NCBI GenBank assembly: GCA_015657535.1
Contig: JADHZB010000496.1
Location: forward strand, 1 to 64,000
Direction: 5' to 3'
Length of the DNA stretch: 64,000 bases
Source: Nephromyces sp. MM_2019
Taxonomy: Eukaryota > Apicomplexa > Aconoidasida > Nephromycida
This document shows, piece by piece, positions 1,308 through 45,104 of the stretch (position 1 is its first letter; each line of letters begins with the position of its first letter). The notes beneath the pieces are model-generated. The model saw only the letters and a list, made by a program, of their open reading frames with translations, did no database searches and had not been told where the DNA came from. Both the position numbers and the translations under genes were made by a program.

Positions 1308-1351
<44 letters not shown>

Positions 1352-1679
1352 ACACACATACACACACACACACATAACACAATATAACACATAATAATCA
1401 AACAATATACAAACAACACACACACAACATACACATGGTAACACTCACCCAAAACAAACACGCAACATAAAGAACAAGATAATATACACATATAAAACAC
1501 ATGCACACACACACACACACATTTCACTCTCTCTTTTTGCACACATTCATTTAGGTGCAAAGGCTATCTTTGAAGGTGGTGATAGCTTTAAAACTCCTTT
1601 TGAAAAAGGATTCTTTTATCCCCCAACAATTTTAGACTGCAGGTATACATTCACACACATATATTTAACCACATGTGTG

Positions 1680-1713
<34 letters not shown>

Positions 1714-3559: not shown

Positions 3560-6500
3560 TTAAATCTTGATTTGAAGAGCTGATAAAAAAAAGTTATATA
3601 TATAAAAATGCGTGTAGATAGTGTGATATGTGTGTATATATATAGATAGTATGTTATGTTTGTGTATATTAATGTTGTATAGTGCAATCATTGTGTACAT
3701 GTTTTTTGGTGTATATCTAGGTTATATAGTTCTAAATCTATGTGCATATATATATATATATGTATGTGTAAAATACCTTCTAATTGTTTCTCAATTTCTT
3801 GTTTTTTGACAGAAAATGCAGAATTATTTTCTTCCATCAAGTTTTTTGTTTCGGTGATTTTCTCAGTTACGACTTGTATAGCTTGTTCTAAATTTTCTTC
3901 TTTTAAAGGTGGCGCTATCTAATTAAATATATAATTGTGTATTTATTGACATGTGTATGACTGTGTGATAAATATGATATAAGATAAAAGTTTAATATTG
4001 AAATTTTATGTTACTATAAACTTACTCCAAATTTGTTGAATGTATTTAATGTAAATATATCAAACTTAAAGTTTTTGGATTTAGCAGATTTTCCTTTGCT
4101 GATAGTATAAATCATATATATACATATATATTTATATATAATTATGTAGTTTATAATTGAATATGTATATATGTGTCTATTCGAATAATATCATTTCAAT
4201 TCCTCTTGTGTGTGTATATGTTATTCACCCGGGCTTATTTTCGGTCTGTGTAAAAAAAATAATTGAAATATTAATACTAAAAAGAGATAATCTTATATAT
4301 ATTTAAATGTACATATAGAAATATATATAAACTCATTTATATGAATAGAAATGCGAATGCATTCATACCCTAAACACATACACCCACATACCCACACACC
4401 CAAGCCTACCCAAAAACACGCACATAGAAATCAAAACACATACACACACAAATCCAAACACACACACACACGAATCCAAACACATACACACATACACATA
4501 CAAACACACACCTCTTTTCCTGGTTTATCAGCCTTTAATTTCTCAAGATATGTTTGTAATGCTTGGAGTGTTTGTAACATTGATAAATGTGGGGAGTTTT
4601 CCATATTTTCTAATTCTTGTTGTAATTGACGGGCCTTTTGTTCAACATCCTTTTGTGCACGCGCTTCTTTTTGCTGTGTGTTTATAAATATGTTTTGTAT
4701 TTGGGGATTTGTTGTGTGTGTTTTTTTAAAAGTATTTATGGGTGTGTGAAAATTAAGGGTATGGGAAAATATACATATATAGACAGGGATATAGATTATG
4801 TCTCGAGTGCTAGTAAATAAAAAAAATATATCGTTGTTTATTTTTGTGTAAGGTGTATATACAATGAGGTATTTATGTGTATAATGCTATAGTAAGATAT
4901 GTGTAATGTCAAGTTCTTTGATAATGAGCAAGAGAGGGGTTATAGTGTGTATAGTAATCAGGTGGAGTGTTTGAAGATGAATGTTACATAAAGTATTATA
5001 TATTGATGAAGATTTTATGTGTATCAAATTTTGTGAAAAATTAAGCTAATATGATTGTGTGTGAATGTTAACCTTCTCAGCTCTTTCCATATTAAGCCTT
5101 TGTTTTTCTTCGTTATATTTATCAATCTCTGACTTAAATTGAGCCCTTATTTCTTCTCTCTGTAAATACACACAAAAATTTCAAATAGAAATTATGTGTG
5201 TGAGTAGGTCTTTAGGAAATGACACTATTTACATGTATGTATTCATTTTTGTGAATATAAATGTGTGTGTGTGTGTGTGTGCTTGCATCTGTATGCGTTT
5301 ACCTCAGATGAGATTTGTTTTCTTCTCTCTTGGTGAGCTTTAATCTGTGCTTTAAGTTCGCTAATTACTTCTGGATTCCAATTGGTATCTCTATGAGCAT
5401 TTTTGTTTTGCTCATTTAATTTATTTTTTCTTGCTTTCAAATATTCCACTTGTTTTTCAACTTCTTCAATTTGTGATGCCCTTGCTGTTGTTAGATATAT
5501 ATGTATATATGTGTGTGTATAGAGCATACGTATATTGTGTATAGAGTTTATGTAGATTATGTGTATACAAAGTAATGTATGGAATACAAAATCGTGTGTG
5601 GAATATAAAAATATTTGCGTAAAATAAAAAGTTGACAAAATATAAAGTGTGGAAGAAAAATGGAGAAATTAAAGAATAGATTGATTATCATAGAATGTTG
5701 ATAAAGGGATCAAAATTTGATTGATCACAAATATTCTATCCAATATTCTCACTTGAGAATATATTTATGTGTAATATTATTCATAGCTTACCATTGTTAG
5801 CTTCAGTTGTATCATTTGTATCAGGGGTGCTCATGTTTTCAGATTTAACAGTAGGTTGTATTTTCTTAGTAAGTTGAGCTGTTTTGGCCTCTTGTTGACG
5901 GAGAAATCTGAGCTCAGAATTCAAACTTTCAATCTTTGACATCATTTCTTTTTCTTCTTTGAGTGTAAGTGTTGAAGTGATCATTTGTTTCTCCAAACGG
6001 TCAACTTCATTTTTCAAATCATTCACTGAGGCAAATGATGAATGGTTATTCATATTGGGCTTTTTTACAGCTGGTTTTTCTGGTGATGCTTTTGATTGGT
6101 TGGCATTAAAATTATTTGACTTTCTGGGGTTACTTTCAATCATATTTGCTCTTATTTTCATCAAATTAGAAATATTTGCAGAAATTTTGTCTATCTCATC
6201 GCGAACCTTGAAAAATTCATTGTTCTCATTTTTTCTTACCTTAAACATTTGGTCAAGAGTTTCATTATCCGTTTTCTATACATTAAAAATGGTTTATATT
6301 AATGTATAGATGTTAAGATGAGGTTGTGGGGATGTGTTTGAATATGTGTGATTATAGGTGTATGCACATTGAGCTATAAATAAGTCCTCCACAACAATTA
6401 TCACTACATAAAATTATTCCAAAAATATTCTGCACACCTACACACAAATACTACAACAATATCGTGGGAGGTTAACACAAAAAAGATGCACATAATATTG

Positions 6501-9340: not shown

Positions 9341-10650
9341 TTAATTGTTAATAAAAGGATTTCCTGCAATCTTCACTGTAACCATCTCTGGACAACAGCC
9401 AGCTGTAGTTCTGTAGATTAGAATTATCAAATAATATTGTTTTGAAAAGCAAGTAGTACGGATTAACTTACTTGAATGGAAGTAGTGCAATTTCAGCAAT
9501 ATCATCAGGCTGAATTACTTTATCCATATGCACAGCTGAAATCAATTAAATTTTATATTAAATAATTAATATGAATAATGTCATAAAGTCTTCCAAGGTA
9601 CTTACGAGATGAAGAAACCATATCAGTTGCCACAAATCCTGGGTTGATGAGCATTACCTGCAAGAAAATTTAAAAAGCAACTAGATGATCTTATATCTAT
9701 TGGACATTAGCTGAGTGTACCTTAATGTTGAAAGGCTTCAAGTTAAGTTGGCAATGATGGCTAAATCCTCGAATTGCCCATTTGGAAGTTGAGTACATTC
9801 CTACAGTAGTCATTCCTTCAGTTGCAGCGATACTTCCAATATTGATAATGGCACCAGACTTCTTTTCCATCATTGAAGGTGCAACACTAATCAAAATATA
9901 GATTAAAACTTAGATCAAGTGAAAAAGGAATTGTGATTAAGATGATAAGGCAGATGTGCATGATTTAGTAATCATTGAAATTATGTAAATTGCTATTGGC
10001 CTACTAATTAGTTATATGTAGAGGTGCCATCACATTTATGTTCATCATTTTAGCCCAATCATCAATATTATTTGGTGATGAAACACCATCTGGATTTAGG
10101 TATCCCGCATTGTTTACCAAAACGTCAATTCCATTGGTGTTGTTAGGGACTATGTTGGTGTCACTCAGAGTGTTTGTGAATGTTTTTATATCATCCAATG
10201 TGCTCATATCACAGGTGAAATAAGAGCAGGTCTGATAAAAATTAGGATAATGATTGTTTCCATAATTACAAGAGATCGTGAACTAAATTTTGATAGCTAC
10301 TATAACAAATCAACAAATATCGTTTTAGTGTGTAAGTTTGCAAAGTTAAAAATCAGTATCTTTAGTTTAATGTAAATAGAAATGAATAATTATATCTCAC
10401 GTTCCCATATCTAATACATTCATTATAAACTTCATTAAGTTTTTTTTCATCTCGACCAGTAAGGATCATATTGGCACCTTCTTTAGCATATGCGATTGCA
10501 ATGGCTACATATATTAAATATAAATTACAAATTCATATTTCAAGAAATTGAGAAATTCATTAAGCTTACAAAAATCTATTTACCTCTTCCAATACCCCTT
10601 GAAGCGCCTGTAATTAAACATGTTTTTCCAGCTAAAATTCCAGATGGCAT
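9341..10650 (-). CDS. Classical short-chain dehydrogenase/reductase (NADP-dependent)
   Basis: A 249-residue SDR oxidoreductase in seven exons (10650-10584, 10504-10401, 10231-10005, 9886-9721, 9657-9606, 9535-9472, 9410-9341; 750 bases in frame). All family landmarks are visible: the nucleotide-binding motif TGASRGIG at residues 14-21, an Arg after the second strand (TGRDEKK) suggesting NADP preference, DVLVNNAG, the catalytic Ser151 in INIGSIA, and Tyr164-x3-Lys168 in MYSTSKWA, then NPGFVATDM. Length is typical for a classical SDR. The sequence resembles the 3-hydroxyacid/serine dehydrogenase and 3-oxoacyl reductase-like members; the substrate cannot be read from sequence. There is no organellar targeting extension. 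The third intron uses the weaker donor GTAGGC. Confidence 0.93.
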
Positions 10651-13600: not shown

Positions 13601-15073
13601 GGACATCATAATTAGGAGGAGTATTGTTTCGTTTGTTTTAGGCATAGTCACCTTCGCATCTCTATTAAAGTGATGCTTGGGTTCACCTCAGTCCCTTTCG
13701 CCACTATCTTTCACAAGGTTGGATGTGAGGAGCGGCACCGAAAATGATCTTTCTCGATAGTTGGGTATGTCAAAGTATCTATAACAATGAAGTGTAATCG
13801 GTGATATGTTAATGTTAGCAAAATTTATAACTTTAATTCTATTTATTTCCAATTCAACATATCTCTATAGGTTGTCTTTTTGTGACAATTCAAGCGTCTT
13901 TCAAAGGGATTGAAACCCCGAAAAGGAGTGGTAATTAGTTAATTTTAGCTACGGTATGGGAAAGGTGAAATACCTGTGCTCCAATACTTGAGGCAGTGTT
14001 TCTATGATAGTTAGAGTTCCCATATCCTGGGCAGGAAGTTCGATTATTCATTCTTCCGCCTCGGTTTGTGGTGTTCCGAGAACTCGTTAAAAGAGCAACA
14101 TCTAATAATTCTCTTGCCTAAACTTTGAAATTGAAGCTTCTTTAAGGACTCCTACTAGGAACTTTTGCAAAATGAAAAAGTACTTCTTATATATGTAGGC
14201 ATCAGGAGGGGGAATTTTTTCATATGTTAATTTCTTTTTAACAAAAAATGAATTTGAGGCGTCAGTCTTCATAATTTTATATGGATCTTGAACGAAAGCT
14301 TCAGTCATTTAATGTCCAGTGTGTAAGATCATAAATTATCAACACTTCAATTCAATGATTAAAAATAAATTTTAAATGTGACAGATTAACTGATTTATTT
14401 ATTAGTAAGATTAACTTACTTTAAAATGGTTCTTAGGTTAGAAATATTTTTCTAGAAAATTTAAATGAAAATTTAAATATATATTTATAGTTGTATATGT
14501 TGTCTGTTAAAGTTATTAAAGACAACACTTTAATTATGATTTCAACTATTACTGGGTTATATACAAGTCATGAAAGGTGTCTTATCTTAGTTGTTTTACT
14601 TGTACTTTAAATTTAACTTTGAGCAACTAATATGTAAGGAATTAATTAATAAAAATTTGTTTTACCTATAAATTAATTTGAATTTTTGACCTACTTAATA
14701 AAAACCTTCGCTCGCGCTTTCGTTAATTTTTCTTGCCAGATTAATAAATTAAGCATATATCAAATAAAAGATTACTACTTTTAATTTAAGCTACTAGAAC
14801 TTTATTTATCGACTCCCCCTACGCAAAGTTGTCCAATTTTATCATAGCTCTAATAGAAGCACTTTAAATATTCGCATCGTGAACACATAGTACGTAACGC
14901 TTAGGATGTATGGATAGGCTTAACAAAAGAACAACACAAAACTTGTTATAGAAATACTTAACAATAGTTTCTTTAAAGGACTAATCAAAAAACACAATTA
15001 AGTTTCATCTCTATGCCCCTTGAAATCGATTACAACTTACAAAAATAAATTATATTACTCAATATTTTTACTA
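10651..15073. other. Gene-poor 4.4 kb with a relatively GC-rich central part
   Basis: Between the divergent SDR and aminopeptidase genes. Flanks are plain AT-rich DNA. From about 12.6 to 14.3 kb the sequence is visibly richer in G and C, with G-runs and C-runs absent from neighbouring intergenic DNA. On the - strand, stretches of gene-like codon use can be read across in-frame stops (for example around 13470-13640 and 13680-13920), which suggests a decayed gene or element; I cannot name it. A 68-codon open frame at 14102-14308 (-) starts with ATG and ends at this zone's edge. No intact gene is supported. Confidence 0.5.
13380..13416. repeat. Inverted repeat, 7-bp G/C stem
   Basis: AGGGGGA at 13380-13386 is the exact reverse complement of TCCCCCT at 13410-13416, with a 23-base loop. 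Such a stem is unusual in this AT-rich DNA and lies in the GC-richer gene-free island. Function unknown. Confidence 0.6.
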
Positions 15074-18000
15074 ATGAATATACCTAGTCCAAGTTTTATA
15101 GGACTTCCTACATTCAGAATTCAAAAAATAAAACAAAAAATATTTTCACTTCTACCATTCATAACTGCTGCTTATGCTGCATTCCCTACTTCAAATTTTA
15201 TAACAGGTTCACGCTTTTTACATGCTCCATTGTGTTACTTTCCTGAAAGCACCAGAACAGCCCTCACACCCAATTTAATCCAATCCTCCCCAATTGAATC
15301 GAACTTTTGTATAAACAAGCCTGAAAATTTAGGTTTTACAAAAGCTATAAGCACATCAAACTCTCCTGAGCCCCCTACTTCAGCTGATAACTTCTCCTTT
15401 AAAAAAATGGATTCGAAACCAAAAACAACTTACAGATCTGAATATAAACCTGTCAACTTCGATGTCGATAGCCTCTACCTAACATTCGATCTAGACACTG
15501 AATGCACCACAGTGGAGATGGAGATGAAGTACCACAAAAGGACTGATTCTGCATCAGATATGTTTTTGAATGGTGACCAAGTTGCCCTTAAAGAACTTAG
15601 GCTAAATGACAAGACACTTCAAGAAGGACAAGATTACTCACTCGCTCCAGGTTCACTTACTATTTTTGCAAACAGCATGCCCTCAGGCACTGAACAAGCT
15701 ACTGTTTACTCAAAGGTTGAAATTAACCCTAAAGAAAACCTTAAACTATTGGGTCTTTATGCATCTGGAAAGATGTTATGTACACAAAATGAAGCCGAAG
15801 GCTTCAGAAGAATAACATACTTTTTTGATCGTCCTGATGTTATGACTAAATACAAAGTCAAGATGACTGCTAATAAAACGAAATTCCCAATACTACTTTG
15901 CAATGGTAATAGAATTGACTACTCTGAAGATGGTGAAAATCATACTGCAGTTTATGAGGATCCATTTCACAAGCCATGTTACCTATTCGCATTGGTGGCT
16001 GGTCAACTTGAGAAAATTACTTCTTCATTTAAAACAATGTCGGGCCGGGAAGTTAGGCTCCAGATCTTCAGTGAACCTGAGAATGTATCAAGATTGGAAT
16101 GGGCGATGGAGAGCCTCAAGGAATCAATGAAGTGGGATGAAGAAACTTTTGGACTTGAATATGATTTAGATGAGTTTAATATTGTCGCCACACGGGATTT
16201 CAACATGGGTGCTATGGAAAACAAGAGTTTAAACATTTTCAACACTGTTCTTATCTTAGCTGACCCTAAAATGACCACTGACAGACAATATAAATATATT
16301 AAAGTAGTCATAGGCCACGAATACTTCCACAACTGGACTGGTAATAGAGTAACTTGTCAGGACTGGTTTCAACTTACACTCAAGGAAGGTTTAACTGTAT
16401 ATCGTGAACATTTATTCAGTGCTGCAACAGGCAACCCTTCCACAGCACGTATTAATGAAGTTAAATTCTTAAGAAGCCATCAATTTGCAGAGGATAGTGG
16501 ACCAATGGCACATCCCATTCGCCCTGATGCCTATCAGGCAGTTGAAAATTTCTACACAAATACTGTATATCAGAAAGGTGGTGAAGTAATTCGAATGTAT
16601 GAAGAATATTTAGGAAAAGAGGGTTTCCGAAAAGGAATGGATTTATATTTCCAAAGACATGATGGCCAAGCTGTCACTTGCAATGATTTCAGAGCCGCTA
16701 TGGCTGATGCTAACAATTTTGATCTAACTCAATTTGAAGAATGGTACTCTCAATCTGGTACCCCACGGGTTACTGTAATTGCAGAAAATTACGATGCTCA
16801 ACAACAAAAGTACACAATAACCTTTAGGCAGGTTGGATTCGTATTTTTGTAAAACTACAGTTAATTAAATTTTTCACTTTCAAATCCCATTTCATATCTC
16901 AGAAAAGCGCTCCCCAGAAAGATAATAAAGCTACTGGACCACTTATGATCCCTATTAGATTTGGATTGATTGGAAAGAATACAAACGCGCATGCTATAGA
17001 GCCTAAAGTTCTCAATTTCAATAAAACTGAGCAAACATTCACATTCGAGAATGTGACTGAGCCAGTCATTCCTTCAATGTTCAGAGGTTACTTACCTAGC
17101 ATTCAAAAACAATTTCATCAATAACTACATTAAGAAAAAAGAATGATGCCTTCTTTCTCGAATAAATGACTCAAGAATTTTAAATGATCTCAAACTTGTT
17201 TAAGCATTTTATATTTTTCTTTATTGATTTTTCAGGTTTCAGTGCCCCTGTAATTGTTGAACATGATTATAGTATGGAAGATGCCCTTAAACTATCTACC
17301 TATGACGATGACCCCTACATCAAATGGGACTCACTACAAAAGTTAACTAAAATAGAAATTGAAAAGATCTTAAAGCAGTATCAAAATGATGAAGAACCCA
17401 CAGCAAACCCTAATTTCATAAATGCTTTTAAAAATATTATAACTAAGACGAAAGATAAAGCCCTTATTGTAATTTAACTATTCTCTAAAATTCAATTATT
17501 AGCTGAGCTACAAAATTTATTACATTTTTTTCCAGTCTTTTATGATTGCACAACCCACTTTCAGTGAATTCATTGGTTCAACTCAAAAAGTTGACCTCGA
17601 CAATCTCATTAAAGCTAAGGAATTTCTAAGGTATCTATTGTAAATTTATAAAAATCAGTTTCTAGATTCGGGCATTAATTTTTTGACATTAGTAAAAAGC
17701 TTGCATTTGAGGCTAAAGAAGAAATAATAGAAGCATATAACAACTGTATGAATATTGCAGAAGGTCAATTTGAACACCTCAATAAGTTTATAAATAACAA
17801 TTACTAAAATTTTTGTATATATTCTTATACCCTATCCAACTTACAACTACTTATATTTAAACTCAAATATAAATTTTTACATATTTTTCGCAAAATTAAT
17901 AAATCAACATTTTGTTATTCTCTTAAAAACAGAGAAACAAAACTATCACTCTCATGAAAACGAAGCCGTAGAAAACAGAGAGTTGGCCAATACCCTCCTA

Positions 18001-24058: not shown

Positions 24059-25303
24059 CTTTGGATTGGATGAAACTTTGTTGAAATATAAACACTGAGT
24101 TATAAGTATGGTATTCGAACAGATTTACTTTTGCATTTCTTAACATAATTCTTGCACTTAAAATTATTTTATCCGGTACCTAAACAGGTGAACATCTTAG
24201 AGGAATCTAGTTTATAATTTATGTTTTGATTGGAGGGTTAGTTAAATTAACTGGATTCAATTAATTCTACATTTTCATAATTACAGATCAAATTCTTAAA
24301 GCTTCTATTTTTGTAATACAGGAAGATTAGATAAAACTTAGTCTTAGATTTGTTTATGTTTGATCACGTCGTAATGAAATTTAGTTTTATGTTTTTCAAA
24401 AATATACAAATTTGCTGACCGAATTATATATTCAACAAAATGATATTCCTATTTTTGTACATAGCTGAGTTGTATGGTTTACTTTCCATAAGTCTAATAA
24501 ACTTTTTTTCATTAAATATTTATAAGTGTTTTTTAAATGTTTAATTCTGTTCCCATATATAATTTAGTAATCAGATTACTAAGCGATAAATTATTTATAA
24601 AAATTTCGATAATGTTAATTTGCTATGACATCAAAGCTGAAAATAATCAAACAAATCTTTTATGCAGAAACAATCAAGAGTAACAGAATTGGAAATTTCG
24701 CTCGAATGGTTGAAAATCCAATTTCATGAATTGTAACGTAATCCAAAATATTTGAAGCTTTAGTGAAAGTTTATAGTATCAAATTTTGAATAATCTTAGA
24801 TAGTTTCGTTGAAGAAAGTTATATAAGTTATATTAAATTCCTCCTTTACACAAAAATCACAATTGAAAGATATGCTCAAAATGCTTGTCAAGCCTATGTA
24901 CCGAGATTTATACTCGAGCAAATTAGCAACATTTTTAAGTTTTAAAGGAAAGTTTGCTACACTTTTAATAAAAAAGCAAATGTGCATATGCATTGCTATA
25001 ATTTTTAGACTTCACTTTACTATGGCAATTGCTTTACTAATCTTTTGGCACCAAATGAATTAGTCAACCAACTCGATTCATCTTTTCTTTTACTAAAGCG
25101 ACTTCTTCTTTTGTTAAGCTCTTTAATTTTCATTAAACTTTTTGCAACTTAGCGCATTTTCCTAAAATCAACTTTTAATACTACTAAAAGGAATCCCCTG
25201 ATTTTAATTTTATACTTGTGAAATTATGCTTTTCACTAGTTTTCAAACTTAATTTTAATCTCGATCTGAAACAGGCATTATTAATTGCACTTGAATACTT
25301 ACC
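24059..25303. other. Intergenic, between divergent genes
   Basis: AT-rich 1.2 kb between two gene starts, expected to hold both promoters. Two overlapping open frames near 24796-25063 lie on opposite strands, look like chance openings and have no recognisable motif. Confidence 0.7.
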
Positions 25304-32799: not shown

Positions 32800-33900
32800 T
32801 TATATATTGATGTCAAGGGTAGAATCAGCATCTACATATACTCCTTTTAAAACACGGTTGGACTTATGGACATGTGAGTTCCCAAGGACCAATTTATCTG
32901 CAAGAATATGACTTTTGAAATGTTGAAAAGCTTCTTCAGGGTCATCAGTGATAAATAACTGCTCTTTGTCTTGCTCTGAAATAGTTCCATATTCCACTAA
33001 AACGTTGAAGTTTATAGTTTGCTCCCAAAAGTCCTTCCCAAGGAGAACAACAGGGATATCCCTTTTTAGCTTACCAGTTTGCTTAAGTGTAAGTATTTCC
33101 ATAAGCTCATCTAATGTTCCAAATCCACCAGGTACGGCTATCAAACCAATAGCTAGGTAAGCCATCCAAAACTTTCTTGTAAAGAAGTAGTGAAATTCAA
33201 AAGCAAGGTCTGGATCAACGTAACCATTTAAGCCAGGTTCAAATGGTAAAGAAATGCCCATGCCCATAGAGCGAGCTCCTGGGACGTCATGGGCACCTTT
33301 ATTAGCGGCTTCCATTAACCCTTTACCTCCTCCGGTACAAACTGCTACTTGTGAAGTTTCACAATTGTTTTTGATGGATTCAAGATCTAAACTGAAATAT
33401 TTCGATGGCGCCACAGATGGACTTGGTACTTCCTTTATTATTTTTGCAAGTGCTTCCCTTGCCTCGTGAGTCTTAAACCAAGTCATTATTTTGGTAGTTA
33501 AATCTCTGGTTTTGTCCCAGTAAACACAGAGTTTTTCTATTCTCGAAAGTCTAAGCTTTCTTCTTTCTCCTTCTAAAATAGTTTTGGTGTCATTTATAGA
33601 GTAAGCTTGTTCGAGCTCAATTTCACATCGTTTCATCTCGAAGTCCCAGGTTTCTCTTGAATAGCTCCTAGCTGAACCGAACACTAGAACGGAGAACATA
33701 ACATTTGCATTTTGAAGCCTTTCTTGAACCTCCAAATATTCGCAAAGAATTCGAACATGACGAGCTGACCTACTATGCATCCATTCAGAATTGTCATAAG
33801 ATTTTTTGGGATGTAGTCCAGGTTTTCGTTTAGGAAAAATTTCAGATATGCCCCAATTGGGGTCTGTAGAAGGTGATGAAGAGCTCTCTGTTTTGTTCAT
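32800..33900 (-). CDS. LOG-family nucleotide 5'-monophosphate phosphoribohydrolase
   Basis: A single-exon, 366-residue Rossmann-fold protein. The diagnostic LOG/YgdH motifs are present: VCTGGGKGLMEAANKGA near residue 190 and PGGFGTLDELMEILTLKQ near 257 (P-G-G-x-G-T-x-x-E). LOG enzymes release the base from nucleoside 5'-monophosphates; in plants and some fungi and bacteria they activate cytokinins (family knowledge). Residues 45-140 carry an Arg/Glu-rich helical segment before the core, so the protein is longer than the compact 180-220-residue plant LOG. The long form is seen in other groups. Substrate is unknown here, and a general purine or pyrimidine nucleotidase role is as likely as cytokinin production. 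The gene has no intron, unlike most neighbours. Confidence 0.9.
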   Translation of the reverse strand: MNKTESSSSPSTDPNWGISEIFPKRKPGLHPKKSYDNSEWMHSRSARHVRILCEYLEVQERLQNANVMFSVLVFGSARSYSRETWDFEMKRCEIELEQAYSINDTKTILEGERRKLRLSRIEKLCVYWDKTRDLTTKIMTWFKTHEAREALAKIIKEVPSPSVAPSKYFSLDLESIKNNCETSQVAVCTGGGKGLMEAANKGAHDVPGARSMGMGISLPFEPGLNGYVDPDLAFEFHYFFTRKFWMAYLAIGLIAVPGGFGTLDELMEILTLKQTGKLKRDIPVVLLGKDFWEQTINFNVLVEYGTISEQDKEQLFITDDPEEAFQHFKSHILADKLVLGNSHVHKSNRVLKGVYVDADSTLDINI

Positions 33901-35530
33901 CTTTGTTTGGGCAAATCAAATGATTCAAAATTATTTTATAAAATAGTGATAAAATGATAGTCTTAATTCAAAAAGTTTAATGTTTTATGTTGAAATGAAA
34001 ATTTAACTTCTAAATATAATGCTGATATAACATTGCTTTCATGCTGTGACAGGGTAGTATAAAAAGTAGAAATAAGTTGATAGAACTAGGCCATTTGTGT
34101 TTAGTAAGTTTACAAATATTAACTGATTATAATAGACATGTAACTAATTGACTTGTTATCAATACGTTTTTAAACTTAGTTGAAAAATTGGATTTTTTGT
34201 TTACATTTTATATTTTTGTTAGTAAAGTTAAAATCTCCTCAATTTTAACAAAGTGAACTTCCCAATCTTGATGGAAAAATTATAAATAAACGTACTTAAA
34301 ACTTTACAATATTTTGAATAGAGCCTCAGTAACTTTTTGCTTCATACTGCTACTAGCTCTATACACAATTAGCAACAAGTTATAATCAAAAAGCCTGCAT
34401 GCCTAGATCAACACATCTAACACAGCTCGACTATTAGCCTGGACACTAAATTATGTTGTAATATATTGGAGTGTTGTGCTTTGATCCTAAGAATCATCGA
34501 TTTTGTCTTCTTTTAGATAACTTAGAGCTAGAAAAAGTGACTGAAATACTCAAAAATTCAATAAATTTTATCAATTAGTATAAATTTTATTAGCAAGTGT
34601 AGAACTTTATAGTTTTTAATAATATAGAAATGGCTTCAATTGGCATCTATAAAGATTAATTAGTATGAATCTCAACCATATTTTAAACTCTACTCATATA
34701 CATAACTTCAGGTTTTGGGTCATTTCTTAAACCATAATCATGAAGATCAGTAATATACAAAATTCTCCGATTTTGTAGCAGTTTAAGGTTTTTATATTCT
34801 CTTAAGACAATTGCACCATCTTTCCAAATTTGTCATCGGCAAAAAATACTTTAGCTGAAAACTAAGTTCAATAGCACAACAAGCGACTGAAGTTAAAACG
34901 GATGGCTTTAATTAGTTCCATAACAATTTATAAGCTATAGTATCAAAGGTACAACTTAACAGTGACCCAAAAGGGTTACCACTCTATTATATTGAATTTT
35001 TTGGATATAAATTTTGTGAAAATTATATAAATCATATTAAGTTAGAGATCGGTAAAGAATCCCAGTGAACTAAACAACACAGTTTTTTATACATAGAATT
35101 GTTTTCTAAATGGATTTTAATTCATTAACTAGTCTTTTACTGTGATTCATTCTGTTTTTGAAACTTATATAAAACAAAACAAAACCCTTTGAGAGTAAGC
35201 TGATTTTTATAATCATTTATTTATGTAAATAATCGGTAAAAAATTATCATTCTTCATGTGAATCAATAAAACACAAGAAGTGCTTTCCAAAATCTCGAAG
35301 CAAAATGAACATTTTTTTGCCTTAAAATGTTCACTAATCAATCCATGACATTATGTCACATAACTTCTTCCTTTTTTCAACAAAAATTATTGATATTTTA
35401 GAATTTAATTACAAAAATTGAAAGTAAGTAATCTGGGATAAGTAGCAGCTTGCTATGAGTGATAGAAGATGACATCATTTAAGTTTTAGACTCTTTGTGT
35501 CAGGCGAGTAGTAAGGCTATGACAATTGCT
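33901..35530. other. Intergenic, same-strand spacer
   Basis: 1.6 kb of AT-rich DNA with no supported gene or repeat array. Confidence 0.7.
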
Positions 35531-36615: not shown

Positions 36616-38207
36616 GTTTCCTGAGATTCAGTCTACAAAATTTTGGAAAATATCAACAAAAGAAATCCTGATTTTGAGTTGTCCAATATCAATTACTTTT
36701 GAATAACTTTAAGCCAAATTAACAAACCTAAAAAATGTATGTGATGGTGTTGAAAAAATGCTTTATTTACTAGCCTTCATAGATTTTTGGTATTACTTTT
36801 GATTATCGTATTATTGGACTTTCATTAAAAATATTTTAATCTTTATTACCATTTGAATAACTTTTCCTATAAACCAGTGGGAATAAGGGAGTTTTTCACT
36901 TTTAAAAATAATTTAATCATGCTTTGCATTTAAATTATTTGGTTTAAGCTTCAAAAATAATTATTAAAAGCTTTGTTATTGTGAATTGGCCTAGCTTACA
37001 TGTTTTACTTGCTAGTTAGTTCAATCGAAAACTGCTATAAGTAACATGGTAAAAATTCTTATGTTATATCCTGCTTGATTTCAATGTTGTGGGTAAATTA
37101 TAAATTAAAAGTAAAAAATACCATTTGTAAATAGTTAATCAAATACAGCATTGCAAACACTTTTAACTAGTATTGCAAGCTCTAGCTCACTAAGTCTATC
37201 CTAACAAAAAATGTTTATAGCACAAGTTTAAGCACTGTTTGTGCTAATTTTTTGTAATGCTTTGCGGACTGCAGTAATTATAATAGCTTAAGTTGTAAAC
37301 AACTTTATAGTTGATTTGAATACAATTTATTTGTTGTTTATAAGTATTTACTAACTCTTACTGACTATAGTGTGGTAATTCATGTCAATTGCCTAATTGA
37401 TTTAAAATAATTCAAACTCAGAAATCTTATTTTTAAACAAAGTATAAAATAGAAATTGTTAACAATAACAAGTACTACTAAAAATACTTTTCAGTTTGAG
37501 TCTATGAACTTGGCAATGGTACTCTATGTCCTAAGATATTTTATCAATTTTCTTATTTTGATGGAACATATTTAAAATTTAGTAAATTATATTCTCTTTA
37601 TGCAAAGAATAATTTATACTTGCCTGTAAAATGGAGAAACAATTTATTTTAGGTCACGAAATGGACTTTTTTAATGAGACACTAAACTTGTATTATGTTA
37701 TTCTTTTGAATACTATATTCTTATTACTAGCATATATAGGTGAATTTCAAGAATAGAAAACTTTTATAGTTAATTACTCAATATTATTGAAACAAGGATA
37801 CTATTCTCTTATCAAGTTTGAGCTTCCGTGTTTGCTACTTTTCTTTACAACTATTAGGCTTTAGTTTTGACGCAGATTATTATAATATCGAGAGGCAGTA
37901 CTACTCACTAACAGCGTTTTAAAGAAAATGCTAAACGTGTGCGAAAGTAACTTGCAGTATTTATTAGCATGATCTTTTAAGACATCTACTGAATCTCAAT
38001 TTTTAATGATAAGATTGCTAGAATAAGAAAAGTTTACCCCCTCTTTAGGCAATACTTTTCTTAAGCTAACAAATTGTTGCATTAGAATATTTAAAATTCA
38101 TCATTGAGAAAGATTTATTTATATTATAAATAAAATTCTTCTTCTTTGAGGATGATTTGAAGATGATTTGTGTAAATAATCTTCAAGAGAATTCTGAATT
38201 AATGATT
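36616..38207. other. Intergenic, same-strand spacer
   Basis: 1.6 kb of AT-rich DNA. I looked for upstream exons of the preceding 224-residue gene and found none that joins convincingly. Confidence 0.6.
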
Positions 38208-38507
38208 TTAATTTTGATTTCTTCGTAGAAGTTTGGAATAAAACTCCTGAGAAAATTTTCTTCTTTAAATGTCAATTTTCTCATTTTGCCATCTTACAAA
38301 ACTATCAATTGTGGTAAGTATATGATTATACATCAATATACTCAATCTTTCTTGACTAGAATTAAATGATTTCTTGTGACATATATTTACTATTATTTGA
38401 TCGAATGATGATAACTTCCTTCTCCTTCCACTGAAGAAAATAATGTAGATATATCTACCTCTAAGAAGTTCTGACTGATCATAAACCGTTACATTTATAG
38501 TTTTCAT
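38208..38507 (-). CDS. Possible small two-exon gene, 82-residue product
   Basis: An ATG-initiated frame (38507-38298) ends at a strong GTAAGA donor, and a 52-base intron to the CAG at 38249-38247 joins it in frame to 38246-38208 and a TAA. The product is basic (GRRRKLSSFDQIIV, ERLSILMYNHILTTIDSF) with no recognised domain. Without splicing, the frame stays open for 80 codons. It starts about 340 bases from the tandem RNA genes, divergently oriented. Chance openness is a real alternative. Confidence 0.3.
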
Positions 38508-38839
38508 TATTTAGTAACATACTAATATGTATATAATCAAAATCTACTATAATCTAGAGGATGAAATAATCTGTTCTGTCAATCCACTGATTTATAATTG
38601 ATGGAAACTCAAGAGATTTCTGATTTATTTTTATATGTATGAATGCTATCGAAGTCGTATAATATTTATAGTAATTAGTACGATCAAAATGTATTCAATA
38701 GCGATTATTTATGAAGTTGGGTGGCATGCTTTCTATATTTTTCTGAATTTTATGTCAATCATAACTTCTCACAATTCTATTTTCAGAAATTATCAGGATT
38801 TTTTCCATAAATTGAATTTTTATCCAAGTAAGCATCAAG
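38508..38839. other. Upstream region of the RNA genes
   Basis: 330 bases between the small - strand frame and the first structured RNA, and hence the likely promoter region for the RNA pair. A 71-codon + strand frame at 38635-38850 runs into the RNA and has no motif, so I treat it as chance. Confidence 0.5.
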
Positions 38840-39110
38840 CTATAACATAGAACTATTGCGAGGAGCCATAAAGTTCCTTTTTCATGCTATGAGGAAAGTC
38901 CCCGTGCCTTGGGCTCGAAAGGAGCAGTGAAGAATCACAGAACCCTAACAATGTAGAAATATCGAAGATTTTTCATGATTACTATAATTTGTTAGGCTGA
39001 TAGCATTTAAGGTAATTTTCCCTTTCTATTCAGCTAATATAGCTAGTGCAATACAACATGCACTCACAGAATGGGGCTTAAGTATGATTTACTTGATAAT
39101 AAAGTTCAAT
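38840..39110 (+). ncRNA. RMRP: RNase MRP RNA candidate
   Basis: RNA subunit of the RNase MRP ribonucleoprotein that processes pre-rRNA. CR-I is GAGGAAAGTCCCCG at 38891-38904, very close to the MRP consensus GGAAAGUCCCCG. CR-V is ACAGAATGGGGCTTA at 39066-39080. They pair as P4: AG plus CCCC at 38897-38898 and 38900-38903 with GGGGCT at 39073-39078, leaving the universally bulged U at 38899. A P3-like helix-internal-loop-helix precedes CR-I: CATAG 38846-38850 with CTATG 38887-38891, and AACT 38851-38854 with AGTT 38872-38875. A GTGA/TCAC hairpin near 38927-38938 sits in the P8 position. The stem CCTAACAA 38943-38950 / TTGTTAGG 38989-38996 follows. The hairpin AGTGCA 39045-39050 / TGCACT 39059-39064 sits directly before CR-V, as in human MRP RNA. 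Ends are estimated. A second RNase P RNA is the alternative. Confidence 0.75.
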
Positions 39111-39119
39111 TGATTTGAT

Positions 39120-39372
39120 GGTCAAAGCTTGAGGTTCTCCACGCTACACGATGTGCATTCCGTGCAATTTAATGTGGATGGGAAGGTCTGAGATGCCGAA
39201 TTTCGATTTAGAAATCGTATGTTGTTAAACATAGGTCACCAAACAGAAATACGCTTTACAGCTTGAAAATGGTCGTCTGGCAAGTAAATAGTTTACTATT
39301 GAGTCCAATCCTCAAGGCATTTGGATATCCAAATGAACTCAATTCAGACTACTCTTGATCATCATTACACAA
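39120..39372 (+). ncRNA. RPR1: Nuclear RNase P RNA candidate (H1/RPR1 type)
   Basis: RNA subunit of nuclear RNase P, which cleaves tRNA 5' leaders. CR-I is GGGAAGGTCTGAGA at 39180-39193 and the 3' strand is CAATTCAGACTACTC at 39340-39354; from memory both match human H1 RNA almost base for base. They form P4 (GTCTGA 39186-39191 with TCAGAC 39344-39349). A textbook P3 precedes CR-I: CCAC 39139-39142 with GTGG 39174-39177, and CACG 39147-39150 with CGTG 39161-39164. CR-II/III appear as AGAA at 39210-39213, a small P12 (TATG 39218-39221 / CATA 39230-39233) and GGTCA at 39234-39238. The CR-IV-like AACAGAAATACGC is at 39242-39254, followed by CAGC at 39259-39262. CR-II/III are RNase P-specific and absent from MRP. 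The specificity domain is very compact. Ends are estimated. Confidence 0.8.
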
Positions 39373-39721
39373 TAATTTCTATTTGATTATGTTTTAATCA
39401 CATTTCTCAATATTTTATTTTTATTACTTGAACCAATTGTATCAAAGACACAACTTCAATCTTTAAAATACTATAATCAAAGATCTTAAACATATATTTG
39501 AAATATGCATAAAAATGTAACTTTCACGTTGAAAACCTTGCAACATTATCCTTACGCATTCAATATGAAGCATCGTAATTAAAATAATTTTAGTTTATTA
39601 TAAAAACAATTTATAGACTCGTAAACTAATATTTCGTAATAATCGCACTTATTATTTTATCCTTCAAATCATACAACAAAATTTAGCTAATAACTTTATA
39701 AAAATATTCTAATTTATTAGA
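39373..39721. other. Intergenic
   Basis: 350 bases of AT-rich DNA between the 3' end of the RNase P RNA and the RPAP3-like stop. The first T4 run after the RNA is at about 39393-39396. Confidence 0.7.
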
Positions 39722-40694
39722 TTACAGATAATCTAATCTACGAGATATCAAAATTCGACCATTCTTATTTAATGAATCTTGTTTTGATGTAAAAATCGAT
39801 TTGTTGTTAGGAGATGTTAACTCGGTACTATATGTGAAATTTTTTTTGATGCAATCCTGTAGTTCACATATTATATTATCATCTTGTCCATTTGGCGTTA
39901 TCATTCCACTGGCTTTCTTAAGATCTATTAATGTATTGATGTAATTTCCCTTTCTAGCATACACTATTGCTCTTCGTAAAAAGCTTTCAAAATTTATATT
40001 CATTCCTAGTAATTTGTTAAAGTATTCAATAGCGATCAGATCTTGTTTGAGGTAATAGTAACAAACTCCAATGTTATTAAGAGAAAAGTAGTATAATTCT
40101 CTAGCTAAATTCCTCATACTCCAAGGTATATTTGAATAAGTTGAAACAGTAGATAATTCCTTTAATGGATGAATACTAGTAACATTAATGAAAAATAAAC
40201 GAAAATATTTAAAAATTTACCTCATAACAAGATTTCCATAATTTACAAGACAATTTAAAATTTTTATTTTTGAACTCTTTGATTGCAGTTTGCTCTATCT
40301 GCCTAAAATTCCTGAAACTATCTAAATCACTTGTGAAATATAGGCATTCTTTTTGCGTCAAAATTTCATATAATTTGTTGGATGTTAAGACACACATAAG
40401 ATTTGCATGAAGGTTTTGATTGTCTACAATAAATTGTTCTTGAAGACATGTGTTTTCCGAGCTTATATTCTTTATTTTGAATTTGTTCTTAGTTTCAGGT
40501 TTTATATTTTTTTCTAGTGAATCTGAAATGTCATTATCATGACTTTTTTTAGTATTTGAGAATCTTATAGGTGTTTCTTTATTTGTAGGTGGAAATTGGT
40601 TACTAAAATTATCCTCCCAATCATATAGGTCATCTAAAAATGTTTTTAACTGGAGACCAGTTTGTCTCAGGTGTAACTGACTAGCAAGCGACAT
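39722..40694 (-). CDS. RPAP3/SPAG1-like TPR co-chaperone
   Basis: Two exons (40694-40221 and 40159-39722) give 303 residues in frame using an AAG acceptor. The N-terminus has LQLKTFLDDLYDWEDNF, matching the helix typically found ahead of the TPRs in RPAP3/spaghetti proteins (L-x-D-F-x-x-D-L-x-x-W-E). A polar linker follows, then helix pairs consistent with a three-unit TPR domain: AIKEFKNKNFKLSCKLWKSC, YYFSLNNIGVCYYYLKQDL with AIEYFNKLLG, and SFLRRAIVYARKGNYINTL. RPAP3 is the HSP90-recruiting subunit of R2TP, which assembles RNA polymerase II and, with TEL2, PIKK kinases (family knowledge). No separate RPAP3 C-terminal RUVBL-binding domain is seen, so a shorter SPAG1- or Tah1-like co-chaperone is possible. 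It lies 342 bases downstream of TEL2 on the same strand. Confidence 0.6.
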
Positions 40695-41035
40695 GGACCA
40701 TGTGACAAATTAGATTAGTTTAGTCTTTCATTAATAGCACGAAGTTAAAAATTAGATTAAAAATTTTAAACACTCGCTCAGTATTGAATGAATAGTTGGT
40801 CTATGAAATCGTAACTACTTATAGTTTTAAACGATAAAACCAAAAAATCAATTAAAATTTTTTTAGATGTATTTATATAGGAATGAGTTATTTCTCAATA
40901 TATACACAATTTAGGTAAAAATAATCTTATTCTTTGATTTACTATTGCCATCGATGAAATTTGTTATTATAATTTGAGTATTATAATGTAGGTAATTTAT
41001 ACATTTAAAAAGATCTTTTATCTAAATGGGTTATT
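40695..41035. other. Short intergenic spacer
   Basis: AT-rich spacer between the TEL2-like stop and the RPAP3-like start, with no additional signal. Confidence 0.8.
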
Positions 41036-44000
41036 TTAATAAGTTAGATCCTGTATTACAATAGAAGAAAGCTTTCTGATAATTTCATCTGGTGAATTTT
41101 GATTAAGATCAATAAGCCATTCGACTAGCATTTGGAATTGTTTCGAAAATTTTATTGGCTGAAGAAAGTTGTGAGATATGCTTAATCTTGCTGCAAGGGA
41201 AATTAGGCATCGAATTTGAAAGTTTGATGAGGGGTTTGGTCTAGAAATGTAAAATGCTAGAATGTCAAGTGAAACGCTCAGCATATCGCTAAGATTATGA
41301 TCTGCTTGACCCGCGCACTCAATTATTATAGCTAGAGTGTGAATTAGCGAGCCAAAGATGAGTGGTTCCTTCATTTTTAGAGTAGTGTTCATGAATTTAC
41401 CCTGACTTTTAGAAAAAATATTTTCATTGTCACTACTATTCGAGTCCTTAAAGTTCTCGAGAACTTTTCGAATTTGGTTAAAGAATAAAAAAGAAATATC
41501 TGAGAAACCATTTAAGGTGTGATAAATTCTTGTAGCCTGAGAAGTGTTACTAGGTGGCTCTGATGTACTTGAAATACTGGAAGAATTGTATTTTATAATT
41601 TTATGTTCAATTTTTTTGCCAGTTTTAGGTTGTTTGGCCAAGGGAAATTTTTCCGAGTAGATTGAATTACCTGATATATCCCTTGTTGCGTCTTGGACTA
41701 TTTTCAAAAGTAGCAATTTTTGAGAAATGTTCAAGTCAGGCTTCATAAAAAGCATTGGGAAATCTGCCATAATTTTAATAGGATATTTTGAAACTAATTT
41801 TACCATTGCTATATTTTGCATTCTTTGTTGATTTTCGATTAAAGAATCCTCCAAATAAACTAGAAGGTTGAATAAAGGTATAGCTAAATTCTCAGTTTCA
41901 GGAGATCCATATTCTAAAAGATTTGGTAAAGTTGAAATAGCAATAGCTAAACGATGCTCTGTTTGTGTCGGGGTTTCTTTATTGCTAGGGATTTTTGAAG
42001 GGTCCGAAAATTCATCAAACATAGATCCTTTTTCTGGATAACTGATGAATCCACTTATCCGATCAAAGCATTGCTGAATGTTTATTGGATATTCAGAATA
42101 ATTTTCATCTAATTTGAGATTGGCTATACAAGAGGGATGAGATGTCAGTGAATCTATTGATTTATTTGACTTAGATAGGTTAACGTTGTTAGTTATTGAC
42201 CTTTCAAACATATTTCCTGGGTTAATTTTGCTTGGGAAGATTGAATTTGAAAAAGTCCCAAGTAATTTTGATGGTGGGTAATTGTATTTGAAGGATTCCA
42301 TAAGTAGTTTAAAATGGTCGGAGAAATTGACATCTGAGAGGAAAAAAGAGGATTCGACAGAAATATAAAGGTAGAAGATGTCATAAATGTTGTTTTTTTT
42401 TGTTAGGAATTCGATGGTATCAGTCTTATATTGTGTTTCACATAAGATTCGTTGAAAAGGCTTCAGAGATGGTAAAAGATACCACAATTTCGTTGATATG
42501 ACTTTTAATTCCTGGTGTAGCTGTTCAAATTTATAAGTCTCAGATGGATCTTCTATGTGGTGTTCTTCTAAATTTTGATCAATTAACTGTGACTTAGTGC
42601 AAAGAATGATCGATTCTGCGAGTTGTTGTGATATAATAGAAATTTCATATATTGGGCTTTCCATTCTTCGATGTAAGCCTTCCAAGAGAGCTTCAAGATT
42701 AGATTCTAAAAATCTCAAATTAGTTGGGAAAGTTATCGAAGTCTGTTGCTGTAAGAACGGTTTAGCTTTTAACATATGTGTATTGAAGATGTTAGCATTT
42801 CTTAAGCATCTTGAGATGGTAGAACATAAAAAGCAGTGGTCCGAAATTTGAATTTTGTCCAAATATTTTAAATTGGACCATTGATCGACAAGACTTTCAA
42901 AAATCTGTTTGAAAGTATCCAATCGAATAATTATTTCATTTTCTGCAAAGTCTTGTCCAATTAAGTGAACTTGAATTTGATTTTCTCCGGTAAAAGGATC
43001 CACAAAAGACAAAATATCGATTATAATCAAGGCAAGAGGAATCTGGATTAAATCCTTTGAATTTACATCAAAAGACTCTCTAATAATAACATGGAAGTGT
43101 TTGATGGTTTGGTAGCTTAATAAATGTTGGATCATGCAAAAAAACTGATAAATTACACCCATGCGTAAATTATCAGTGGTCTGGGTGTCTATTTCTCCAT
43201 TTTCTGATTTTAGGTCCCCAGATAATCCCAAACCACAAGCCAAGATTTTGAAGATTGATCGTAAAATTTTTTGAGAGTTTGTAAGGGATGGCGTGAATAC
43301 ATATTTTAAAAAAGAGTCAATAGGATTTTTATACGAGGAAATTATATTGTGTGGCTCTGTAGCATATTTTATATAGTGGCACAGTAACATAAATGAGATT
43401 ATATCTGAATAACCCGATTGGATAAATTTATTAATAAACAGTTGTAAAGTAGAGTTTTGTTCAAGTAGATGTTCGCTATCGGATATTTTTGAAATTTCGT
43501 TGTGGTTACTTAAATTTGAATCCTTGTTATCATGTAAGAATTCCAGTAATCGATCAGCTAGCCAGCAGCCATAAAAATTTCTTGCAAATCTACCAAGGTT
43601 TCTTCCCAGAAAAGTAAAGTCAATAGCTGATAAAGCATTTGAACCAGTACGATCTAAAAGCTTGTGGTGTATTGTTGGGACAATCTCAGCTATTCCAATA
43701 ACTTTTTTGACCAAGCGAGAACACTGGATTGGGCTGGAAGAAAGTTTTTTATAGTTTTCCAATAGTATTATTAAGATATCGAATTCATAGCAGATCATGT
43801 TAAGTATGTAAAGGACAATTCCCCATGTGTGTATGAGCCTTTGAATGTTCTCTGTACTTTTATCCAAAGTAAGGAAGGCGTCAAGTTTTTCAAGTAATGA
43901 GTAATATGTTTCAAAAAGTTCTATCAAAAAAACTTTATCAGATGGGTTACTGTTTAAATCCTCCCTAACTTGATAAACAACTGATTTATCAATAATCGAG

Positions 44001-44191
44001 CTGAATTCGTTTTCACTTTTGGGCTCTGATTCGTTAAGAGCATTAGCTATTAGTTTAACCCATTTATCATAAACCTTTGTCTCAGAAAAAAGAATAGTAA
44101 AGCTCTCATCTGTGTTTATACCCAGAAACTTTGTGAATAGGTAATCTGAGTGACCACCAACTTGCCTTTGTTGATGTTGAAACGTGCTCAT
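41036..44191 (-). CDS. TEL2: TEL2/TELO2-like helical-repeat protein (TTT complex)
   Basis: An uninterrupted 1051-codon frame, all alpha-helical. The C-terminal 110 residues contain EPLIFGSLIHTLAIIIECAG, then FQIRCLISLAARLSIS and SPDEIIRKLSSIVIQDL. These align with the conserved end of TELO2 (L-x-G-x-L-L-H-T-L, then a leucine-rich helix and the D-P-D-E-x-x-R-x-L-A motif). Residues about 745-840 (LPNLLEYGSPETENLAIPLF, LVYLEDSL, PIKIMADFPMLFMKPDLNIS) match the preceding TELO2 segment that ends in the Y-G-P-D-Y-S-L-R-Q motif. TEL2 with TTI1 and TTI2 stabilises mTOR, ATM and ATR kinases through HSP90-R2TP (family knowledge). The first ATG is at 44189-44191. The remaining N-terminal two thirds is diverged. 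A different HEAT-repeat protein is the alternative. Confidence 0.72.
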   Translation of the reverse strand: MSTFQHQQRQVGGHSDYLFTKFLGINTDESFTILFSETKVYDKWVKLIANALNESEPKSENEFSSIIDKSVVYQVREDLNSNPSDKVFLIELFETYYSLLEKLDAFLTLDKSTENIQRLIHTWGIVLYILNMICYEFDILIILLENYKKLSSSPIQCSRLVKKVIGIAEIVPTIHHKLLDRTGSNALSAIDFTFLGRNLGRFARNFYGCWLADRLLEFLHDNKDSNLSNHNEISKISDSEHLLEQNSTLQLFINKFIQSGYSDIISFMLLCHYIKYATEPHNIISSYKNPIDSFLKYVFTPSLTNSQKILRSIFKILACGLGLSGDLKSENGEIDTQTTDNLRMGVIYQFFCMIQHLLSYQTIKHFHVIIRESFDVNSKDLIQIPLALIIIDILSFVDPFTGENQIQVHLIGQDFAENEIIIRLDTFKQIFESLVDQWSNLKYLDKIQISDHCFLCSTISRCLRNANIFNTHMLKAKPFLQQQTSITFPTNLRFLESNLEALLEGLHRRMESPIYEISIISQQLAESIILCTKSQLIDQNLEEHHIEDPSETYKFEQLHQELKVISTKLWYLLPSLKPFQRILCETQYKTDTIEFLTKKNNIYDIFYLYISVESSFFLSDVNFSDHFKLLMESFKYNYPPSKLLGTFSNSIFPSKINPGNMFERSITNNVNLSKSNKSIDSLTSHPSCIANLKLDENYSEYPINIQQCFDRISGFISYPEKGSMFDEFSDPSKIPSNKETPTQTEHRLAIAISTLPNLLEYGSPETENLAIPLFNLLVYLEDSLIENQQRMQNIAMVKLVSKYPIKIMADFPMLFMKPDLNISQKLLLLKIVQDATRDISGNSIYSEKFPLAKQPKTGKKIEHKIIKYNSSSISSTSEPPSNTSQATRIYHTLNGFSDISFLFFNQIRKVLENFKDSNSSDNENIFSKSQGKFMNTTLKMKEPLIFGSLIHTLAIIIECAGQADHNLSDMLSVSLDILAFYISRPNPSSNFQIRCLISLAARLSISHNFLQPIKFSKQFQMLVEWLIDLNQNSPDEIIRKLSSIVIQDLTY

Positions 44192-45104
44192 CAAACTCTT
44201 TTTGATTTATCTTAGGTTCATTGATTTTGAAAATTATAAAACCAGAGCGGCAAAGTAAGTTGCGTGTTATCTTTTATTCTTAGTTTTATATTCTTAAAGC
44301 TAAATAAGACTATTTGATAGACCGTTCTGCTTTTCTCGAGGTTTATTGGCTTGCTAGCAAGCGTGGCAGTTCAATATAAAGATAGCAATCATGTTTAAGA
44401 TGCTTGTCAGGTTTAGTTGTTAAAGTTACATTAATATTTTAATTTATGTTATTTTTTACAGTAAATGCAAAGTTAATACAAGCCAACTGCAAAATTGTTT
44501 GAAGCCAATAATTATATGATTTTTTCAAAAGTACATTCTTTGAACTTTTTATTGCCTTTTCAATTAAACTTATTTTTCACCAATCCTTGCTATATTAAAT
44601 ATTTGTTAAGTTGTGCGTCACAGAAATCAAACTAATTAAAGAAATTTACATTTATTATATTTTAAGTTATCATTAAGTTATGTGTTGAGTTTATGAGTAA
44701 TAACTATATGGCGAACTTATAATATAATCAACTTACAAACTAGTTTTTTCAGTAATCCACAAAGGTGTCCTACACTGGTATATAATATTCTAAATACAGG
44801 TACACCGAAATTACTCATTTGCTTTTACCTTAATATACCCATATAATTAGATTACTAAGTCTTCATAAAATTGCAAAATCTAAAGTTCTATGTGGTTATT
44901 ATTATAGTAATTATTTTCTTAATCTAAATACACAAATTATGTTGAAAGTGTCTACGCAAAAATTTTAGCAAGAAGATTAAATTTTTCAATTTTCTAAAGA
45001 ATGTTGTCAATTAAATCCTCTTGGGCAGTGTATAGATGTTCGTATAAAGAAGATTAAATAACCAAATCAAAAAAATTAAATTTTAGAAAATTTGATTGAA
45101 TGGG

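Follow-up and report, generated by a model that had tools for sequence, protein, structure and literature searches.

Genes for the RNase MRP and RNase P RNAs, known to be unlinked in human and yeast, stand next to each other in a stretch of 64,000 nt (hereafter the window) from an assembly deposited as Nephromyces sp. MM_2019. An earlier note, made by reading the letters, had located the two RNAs and offered two explanations: a relic of the duplication from which MRP RNA is thought to derive, or a shared transcription unit. The locus hence raises the question of what these genes are, whether their linkage is kept by descent and how the second of them is transcribed.

The RNase MRP and RNase P RNA genes and a second pair

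Screening the window with the Rfam covariance models yields two matches at gathering level and no others, the cutoffs being 50 bits for RF00030 and 28 bits for RF00009. Each RNA is matched as a separate gene, full length with respect to its model, and the two are arranged head to tail on the plus strand:

38825-39094, plus strand: RNase MRP RNA gene (RF00030, 68.3 bits, E 7e-17, model positions 1-266 of 266)
39095-39116, plus strand: spacer between the two genes, 22 nt, without a T4 run and without a U6-type block before P
39117-39363, plus strand: nuclear RNase P RNA gene (RF00009, 99.9 bits, E 2e-27, model positions 1-301 of 301)

The adjacency on one strand claimed by the earlier note is confirmed by these two matches. 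The interval it gave, 38840..39372, covers the pair, but omits the first 15 nt of MRP RNA and ends 9 nt past P. Its CR-I motifs and the P4 partner of RNase P were found letter-perfect at their sites (GGAAAGTCCCCG at 38893-38904, GGGAAGGTCTGAGA at 39180-39193 and TTCAGACTACT at 39343-39353), and P4 of RNase P (CR-I/CR-V) forms all five model-annotated pairs, in the window as well as in a second pair on contig C371 of the same assembly (see below). CR-I and CR-V sequences are also present in the MRP RNA, whose Rfam model carries no P4 annotation; the MRP P4 with a bulged U, read by the earlier note, is putative. In the alignments the P8 loop of MRP is GAAAG in the window and on C371, which fits the GARAR pentaloop described as an MRP RNA signature (PMC13184271, PMC4287351); the bare motif occurs elsewhere in both RNAs, P included, the position in P8 being the diagnostic point. 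Read by eye and with approximate boundaries, the six-nucleotide CR-IV is AGCUAA / AGUUAA in MRP vs AGUCCAAU / AGUCUAAU in P. Judging from sequence, the window genes are almost certainly those of RNase MRP and nuclear RNase P RNA, and we read them as ordinary and functional; membership of P in an active holoenzyme is predicted only.

Among the candidates scored with Rfam models over the whole assembly (48,283,399 bases, 1127 contigs, the window being C266:1-64000) there are two MRP and two P genes. The second of each lies on C371:

162785-162494, minus strand: C371 RNase MRP RNA (RF00030, 82.9 bits, model positions 1-266)
162127-161856, minus strand: C371 RNase P RNA (RF00009, 80.0 bits, model positions 1-301)

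Order and relative strand are those of the window, with a spacer of 366 nt vs 22 nt, so that looking for the same pair elsewhere, as the earlier note had advised, returned a second, diverged one. An independent, diverged pair alike in order and strand makes a chance or assembly origin unlikely.

The comparison of the two pairs also informs on selection. The P RNAs have the same letter at 134 of the 223 model positions common to them. Of their 55 annotated pairs, 53 are ungapped on both contigs; pairing is retained in both lineages for 46 of these and lost in one or both for 7, and 18 are compensatory. For the MRP RNAs, identical at 103 of 222 shared positions, 57 of 67 annotated pairs are ungapped in both, with 44 forming in both, 22 compensatory and 13 broken in at least one lineage, nine of the latter within the poorly aligned model stretch 119-189. 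All pair counts come from alignments fitted to the Rfam models and are biased towards them. The many double changes at 46-60% identity argue for working MRP and P RNAs in both lineages, and the structures of both RNAs are under selection in two diverged lineages.

The same arrangement was also sought in viral contigs. An exact-motif scan of IMG/VR gave 113 stretches with the RNase P CR-I (80 of the 113 listed) and 27 with CR-V, and none of the contigs in the 156 locus records carries both P motifs plus an MRP CR-I before or after them. Five loci (L019, L060, L072, L084 and L123) show GGGAAGGTCTGAG and CAGACTACTG within an identical span of 347 nt; these contigs, with a CR-I and a CR-V-like word, were discarded as RNase P RNA, as they look like phage coding DNA (one read by eye).

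Genes around the two pairs and the lineages that carry them

Upstream of MRP the window contains further candidate RNA genes, and downstream protein genes that converge on the cluster:

38398..38483, plus strand: box C/D snoRNA-like gene A (C box ATGATGA 38405-38411, D' CTGA 38431-38434, guide CCTCTAAGAAG 38458-38468, D CTGA 38471-38474)
38554..38631, plus strand: box C/D snoRNA-like gene B (C-like box AGGATGA 38558-38564, guide CTGTCAATCCA 38576-38586, D' CTGA 38587-38590, C'-like TTGATGG, D CTGA 38620-38623)
38639..38736, plus strand: tentative element C (TCGAAGTCGTA ... TTGGGTGGC common to window and C371, possible hairpin)
39722..40709, minus strand: two overlapping ORFs, convergent with the cluster, of which one matches TPR weakly (score under the Pfam cutoff)
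41036..44206, minus strand: TELO2 (Telomere_reg-2, PF10193, E 1.5e-8), convergent with the cluster
154009-156560 of C371, plus strand: C371 TELO2 (PF10193, E 8e-14), downstream and convergent

Gene A has its ATGATGA and CTGA boxes, a terminal stem of 5 bp (by eye) and a guide, CCTCTAAGAAG, that is conserved between window and C371. Its best family is SNORD61 in the window (30.4 bits, E 0.09, below the cutoff of 43) and snoU61 for the C371 counterpart (23.2 bits, E 0.11, below the cutoff of 55), the top matches on both contigs thus being families of one Rfam clan (CL00067). In gene B the guide CTGTCAATCCA is conserved, the C box is one letter off in the window and D' is CAGA in C371; the best families differ, snoR14 in the window (29.0 bits, E 0.007, below the cutoff of 40) vs snR67 for the counterpart at 163150-163086 (19.8 bits, E 1, below the cutoff of 55). 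As single sequences searched against the whole C371 contig, both find colinear matches, A with E 6e-4 (nhmmer) and 1e-5 (blastn), B with E 7e-4 and 2e-8, respectively. The guides of A and B may be complementary to conserved 18S stretches. A second guide pairing of gene B, with the 5.8S rRNA of the assembly, was dropped, being unsupported by the 5.8S letters (by eye).

A local comparison (blastn) of window and C371, over 10 and 11.5 kb respectively, recovers, on the RNA strand, P (E 4e-19) and the MRP core (E 6e-8), and upstream of MRP, in the same order, blocks at 38576-38644 (E 2e-8) and 38405-38435 (E 9e-5). As a control, the minus strand gives a single match, with E 0.45; four other plus-strand matches, one within P, also have E 0.45. 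No colinear match on C371 was obtained in the single-sequence search for the A-B spacer, the spacer between C and MRP or the approximately 200-nt flanks on either side, and the local alignment scores of the next 2 kb or so upstream and of 350 nt downstream are not above those of shuffles. A DNA search of the whole assembly with 38397-38740 recovered the window copy alone and, being less sensitive than the local comparison, missed that on C371, hence it says little on further copies. Models R1-R3, which match their own source sequences by construction, were checked for specificity over 274 kb. At 24190-24258 of the window (minus strand) a stretch carrying CCTCTAAGATGTTC is matched weakly (15.3 bits) by the model of snoRNA A; as a further copy this R3 match was set aside, since it looks like a chance likeness to the guide.

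Less well defined is element C, which lies some 100 nt ahead of MRP. Its local alignment score of 34 exceeds the highest from 200 shuffles, 31; the hairpin has 14 pairs, one of them changed on both sides and two on one side, and 256 of 500 shuffles do equally well. The single-sequence search gave no colinear C371 match, the best blastn match lying elsewhere on that contig (E 0.012). It is tentatively considered an RNA or a promoter/leader element; an H/ACA RNA was considered, but no H or ACA box was seen by eye. Genes A and B, for their part, appear from boxes, guides and colinearity to be box C/D snoRNA-like genes before MRP on both contigs, and a conserved cluster that joins snoRNA-like genes to MRP and P is very probable.

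Concerning the protein genes, TELO2 of the window and of C371 show 24-34% identity in matching stretches, and a protein search with TELO2 gave no matches. No counterpart of the TPR protein was recognised beside the C371 cluster among the matches listed. Exons of a GPN-type GTPase lie less than 10 kb from both clusters, but on different sides, so local gene order has changed; those of C371, assigned by likeness to the exons of the window and not by Pfam, are upstream on the RNA strand, approximately 6.4 kb from the RNAs, and mapped in part. On C371 a host transcript may come from this gene. The five ORFs of at least 100 aa that the window has from 32.8 to 44.2 kb are all on the minus strand, hence no same-strand host gene is seen there. 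The ORF at 32803-33915 (minus strand) of this apicomplexan-type genome matches the 'possible lysine decarboxylase' (LOG-type) family PF03641 with E 3e-24. The first 4511 nt of the window (1-4511) are dense in AC/TA-rich tandem repeats, and the long ORFs open in several frames of both strands at 2327-3004 are probably low-complexity sequence, not genes. TELO2 and the snoRNA-like genes may serve as linked markers by which to locate such fast-evolving RNAs in the genomes of other apicomplexans.

Two pairs in one assembly would be explained by mixed lineages. The GC content of the window is 29.7% vs roughly 36-42% for C371 (10-kb pieces), and this difference, together with an AP2-domain ORF (68.3 bits; a second AP2 match is below cutoff) and a diverged TELO2 of its own, makes another apicomplexan-type lineage the most likely source of C371. 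In the window, the best named matches of an M1 aminopeptidase ORF (15002-16852) include Neospora, Vitrella and Theileria, along with other eukaryotes and bacteria. Three plastid-type (apicoplast-type) rpoB genes occur on contigs C1112, C318 and C1009 (L174-L176); they have in-frame TGA, a GC of 16-18% in the pieces cut, contigs of 26-35 kb and 53-57% mutual identity. For the one rpoB searched, the nearest entries are twelve of Nephromyces sp. ex Molgula occidentalis (54-82% identity), which rank ahead of all other named rpoB entries. The assembly is hence Nephromyces-like and appears to combine three or more plastid lineages, and from the assembly the window is placed, by inference, as that of a Nephromyces-like apicomplexan. 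The sole 5.8S rRNA found in the assembly (L157 / L171 5411-5560, minus strand) scores 122 bits and is divergent by eye; no 18S words occur in the readable DNA near it.

It could be argued that two pairs within one 'genome' mean that one is a non-functional paralogue, or that the pair is an assembly artefact. Of U6 the assembly yielded a single kind, and 5.8S and a matching M1 peptidase were likewise found once each; this counts against a mixture and, taken alone, suggests one organism. Against this stand the structures, kept by many compensatory changes in both pairs, the GC difference, the two diverged copies of TELO2, and three rpoB genes so little alike of which the one searched is nearest to Nephromyces; we therefore judge a paralogue or artefact to be highly improbable.

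Promoters, T runs and the transcription of the cluster

The two U6 genes of the assembly, identical and 4.84 kb apart on contig C195 (L172:4808-4915 and 9648-9755; GC 28%), were used as promoter reference and are assigned to the lineage of the window by GC only. They end in T7 and have upstream a block of 45 nt common to both with one mismatch (CACCTTTTAGCCAATCCACTCTAAATATGAAG, then a TATA-like stretch), a candidate for the Pol III promoter of this group, to which the block found before P on C371 is related. The 80 nt upstream of each RNA were searched for a 17-nt core of the U6 block, whose start in U6 is at -40, and the scores were compared with those of 1000 shuffles. Before C371 P the core scores 13/17 at -36 (0/1000 shuffles), and the 32-nt block 18/32 (8/1000); a core score of at least 13 is reached at just 4 of 328,292 C371 positions on both strands, and TAGCCnATnCACT occurs once on C371 and is absent from the window. 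Elsewhere the core scores 11/17 at -61 before C371 MRP (67/1000 shuffles; 32-nt block 761/1000), 10/17 before window P (192/1000; 782/1000) and 10/17 before window MRP (405/1000; 639/1000). Over 37801-39400 of the window the best match to the 32-nt block is 18, within the values of shuffles (17-19). A U6-type block thus precedes P on C371, and none precedes P or MRP in the window, where there is little room for one before P because -36 falls inside MRP.

T runs were scanned as well. The window has no T4 run from 39020 to 39391 and no T6 on the plus strand of 38805-39839; T5 runs are found inside MRP at 38878 and 38969. On C371 a T7 lies 55 nt after MRP, within the 366-nt spacer, and neither RNA contains a T4 run.

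The overall reading that we favour, and regard as probable, is that of an old ncRNA cluster of Nephromyces-like apicomplexans whose P gene seems in the window to have no promoter of its own and is probably expressed by read-through from MRP. Head to tail, the cluster would consist of snoRNA-like A, snoRNA-like B, (element C), MRP and P. In the C371 lineage a dedicated promoter of U6 type, probably for Pol III, would drive P; in that of the window the spacer would have shrunk or stayed short, the U6-type promoter would be missing, and P would be obtained by read-through as an MRP-P dicistron, perhaps with the snoRNAs, from which cutting or trimming would free it. Plasmodium C/D snoRNAs can be co-transcribed, according to RT-PCR data in PMC2656528, and with this precedent read-through is the simplest account for window P. 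Taken by itself, MRP-P read-through in the window lineage has, on the sequence features at hand, about an even chance. The earlier note's shared transcription unit is accordingly plausible for the window, with its 22-nt spacer, its T4-free 39020-39391 and no U6-type block, and less likely for C371, where the block stands 36 nt before P and T7 follows MRP.

Broader versions of co-transcription fare less well. The U6-type block before C371 P lowers the odds both of Pol II transcription, which we consider rather unlikely, and of one precursor for the whole cluster, which appears unlikely. As an ancestral or shared feature, one precursor is opposed by that block, by the T7 after MRP and by the T4-free RNAs, and one precursor in both lineages without any U6-type block was rejected, being countered by the same block. 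A narrower version, in which window P lost a U6-type promoter and is now made solely by MRP read-through, possibly together with the two C/D snoRNAs, may be held as a tentative possibility; a single promoter would then serve the catalytic RNAs of both rRNA and tRNA processing, and either enzyme, RNase P or MRP, may take part in releasing its own RNA.

The main rival to read-through holds that MRP and P each have their own Pol III promoter in both lineages, linkage having no regulatory reason; in the window a TATA or leader element, element C for MRP, or intragenic elements would take the place of the U6-type block. The block at -36 before C371 P and the T7 between MRP and P fit it, and MRP Pol III signals are reported as kept in 26 of 26 further insects surveyed and in animals generally (PMC4287351). 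Since U6 ends in T7 here, the T5 runs inside window MRP may also be read through. A TATA-like stretch lies just upstream of window P (by eye, in AT-rich sequence), so that another kind of promoter for this gene is possible. The block scores of window P and MRP are however at shuffle level, an external P promoter would fall in the MRP gene given the 22-nt spacer, and the C371 MRP core is only 11/17 at -61, matched by 67 of 1000 shuffles. We hold own promoters throughout, including this variant for the window, to be a real possibility that stays somewhat below even.

If P relies on MRP read-through in one lineage only, the step from two genes to one unit would be caught here. The favoured reading, if true, would tie rRNA processing, rRNA modification and tRNA processing together through the joint synthesis of their RNAs, and prompts the question of how MRP and P RNA then acquire their ends.

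Age of the tandem and comparison with known systems

If the tandem were recent, MRP and P of one pair should still resemble each other. Local alignment of like with like, with 200 shuffles each, gives z values of 18.1 for MRP-MRP and 37.2 for P-P between window and C371; for MRP against P it gives -1.3 within the window pair and -0.6 within that of C371, i.e. shuffle level, and 0.7 and -0.2 across pairs. A recent duplication is therefore excluded as origin. That the tandem is a leftover of the ancient RNase P RNA duplication that produced MRP RNA, as the earlier note suggested, agrees with both RNAs being families of one Rfam clan (CL00002) and with their adjacency in two lineages; it gained no positive support, as MRP-P likeness is at shuffle level, though deep age would erase it too, and the genes upstream of MRP are snoRNA-like. 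In Giardia and Trichomonas, moreover, P and MRP RNA genes are listed on different contigs (PMC3228867 Table 2), and linkage in one clade cannot tell retention from later joining. A relic is in our view very unlikely, and P/MRP linkage need not be one of common origin.

Tandem P and MRP RNA genes are reportedly known from some protists through the work of Piccinelli, Rosenblad and Samuelsson in 2005 (NAR 33:4485), where the likeness is that of P and MRP RNA genes adjacent in a protist genome; that work is not known to include snoRNAs, a promoter comparison or a link to TELO2. The earlier note is right on gene identities and tandem; its contrast with human and yeast is less striking than presented there, given these reported protist cases. 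What is new here are the snoRNA-like genes that precede MRP-P, colinear on both contigs, the P/MRP tandem itself being reportedly known already. A full-text literature search, with subscription papers mostly outside its coverage, found no published cluster of C/D snoRNA, MRP and P in two apicomplexan-type lineages.

Several systems resemble parts of the cluster. In Auricularia the rDNA intergenic spacer contains the RNase P, MRP and SRP RNAs and a putative U14 snoRNA (PMC9849065), and is thus alike in bringing P, MRP and a possible C/D snoRNA close together; it is however part of a fungal rDNA repeat, whereas the present cluster is intergenic, stands beside TELO2 and has snoRNA-like genes of other kinds. 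The Plasmodium PFS11-PFS12 genes are likewise apicomplexan C/D snoRNAs in short clusters with one longer transcript, but MRP or P RNA is not described with them in the available text of that source (PMC2656528). In insects and crustaceans RNase P RNA has moved to Pol II and is embedded in introns, MRP staying with Pol III (PMC4287351): as proposed for the window, P RNA there has no Pol III signals of its own and depends on another transcript, but it is intronic, whereas here MRP and P lie together and no same-strand host gene is seen.
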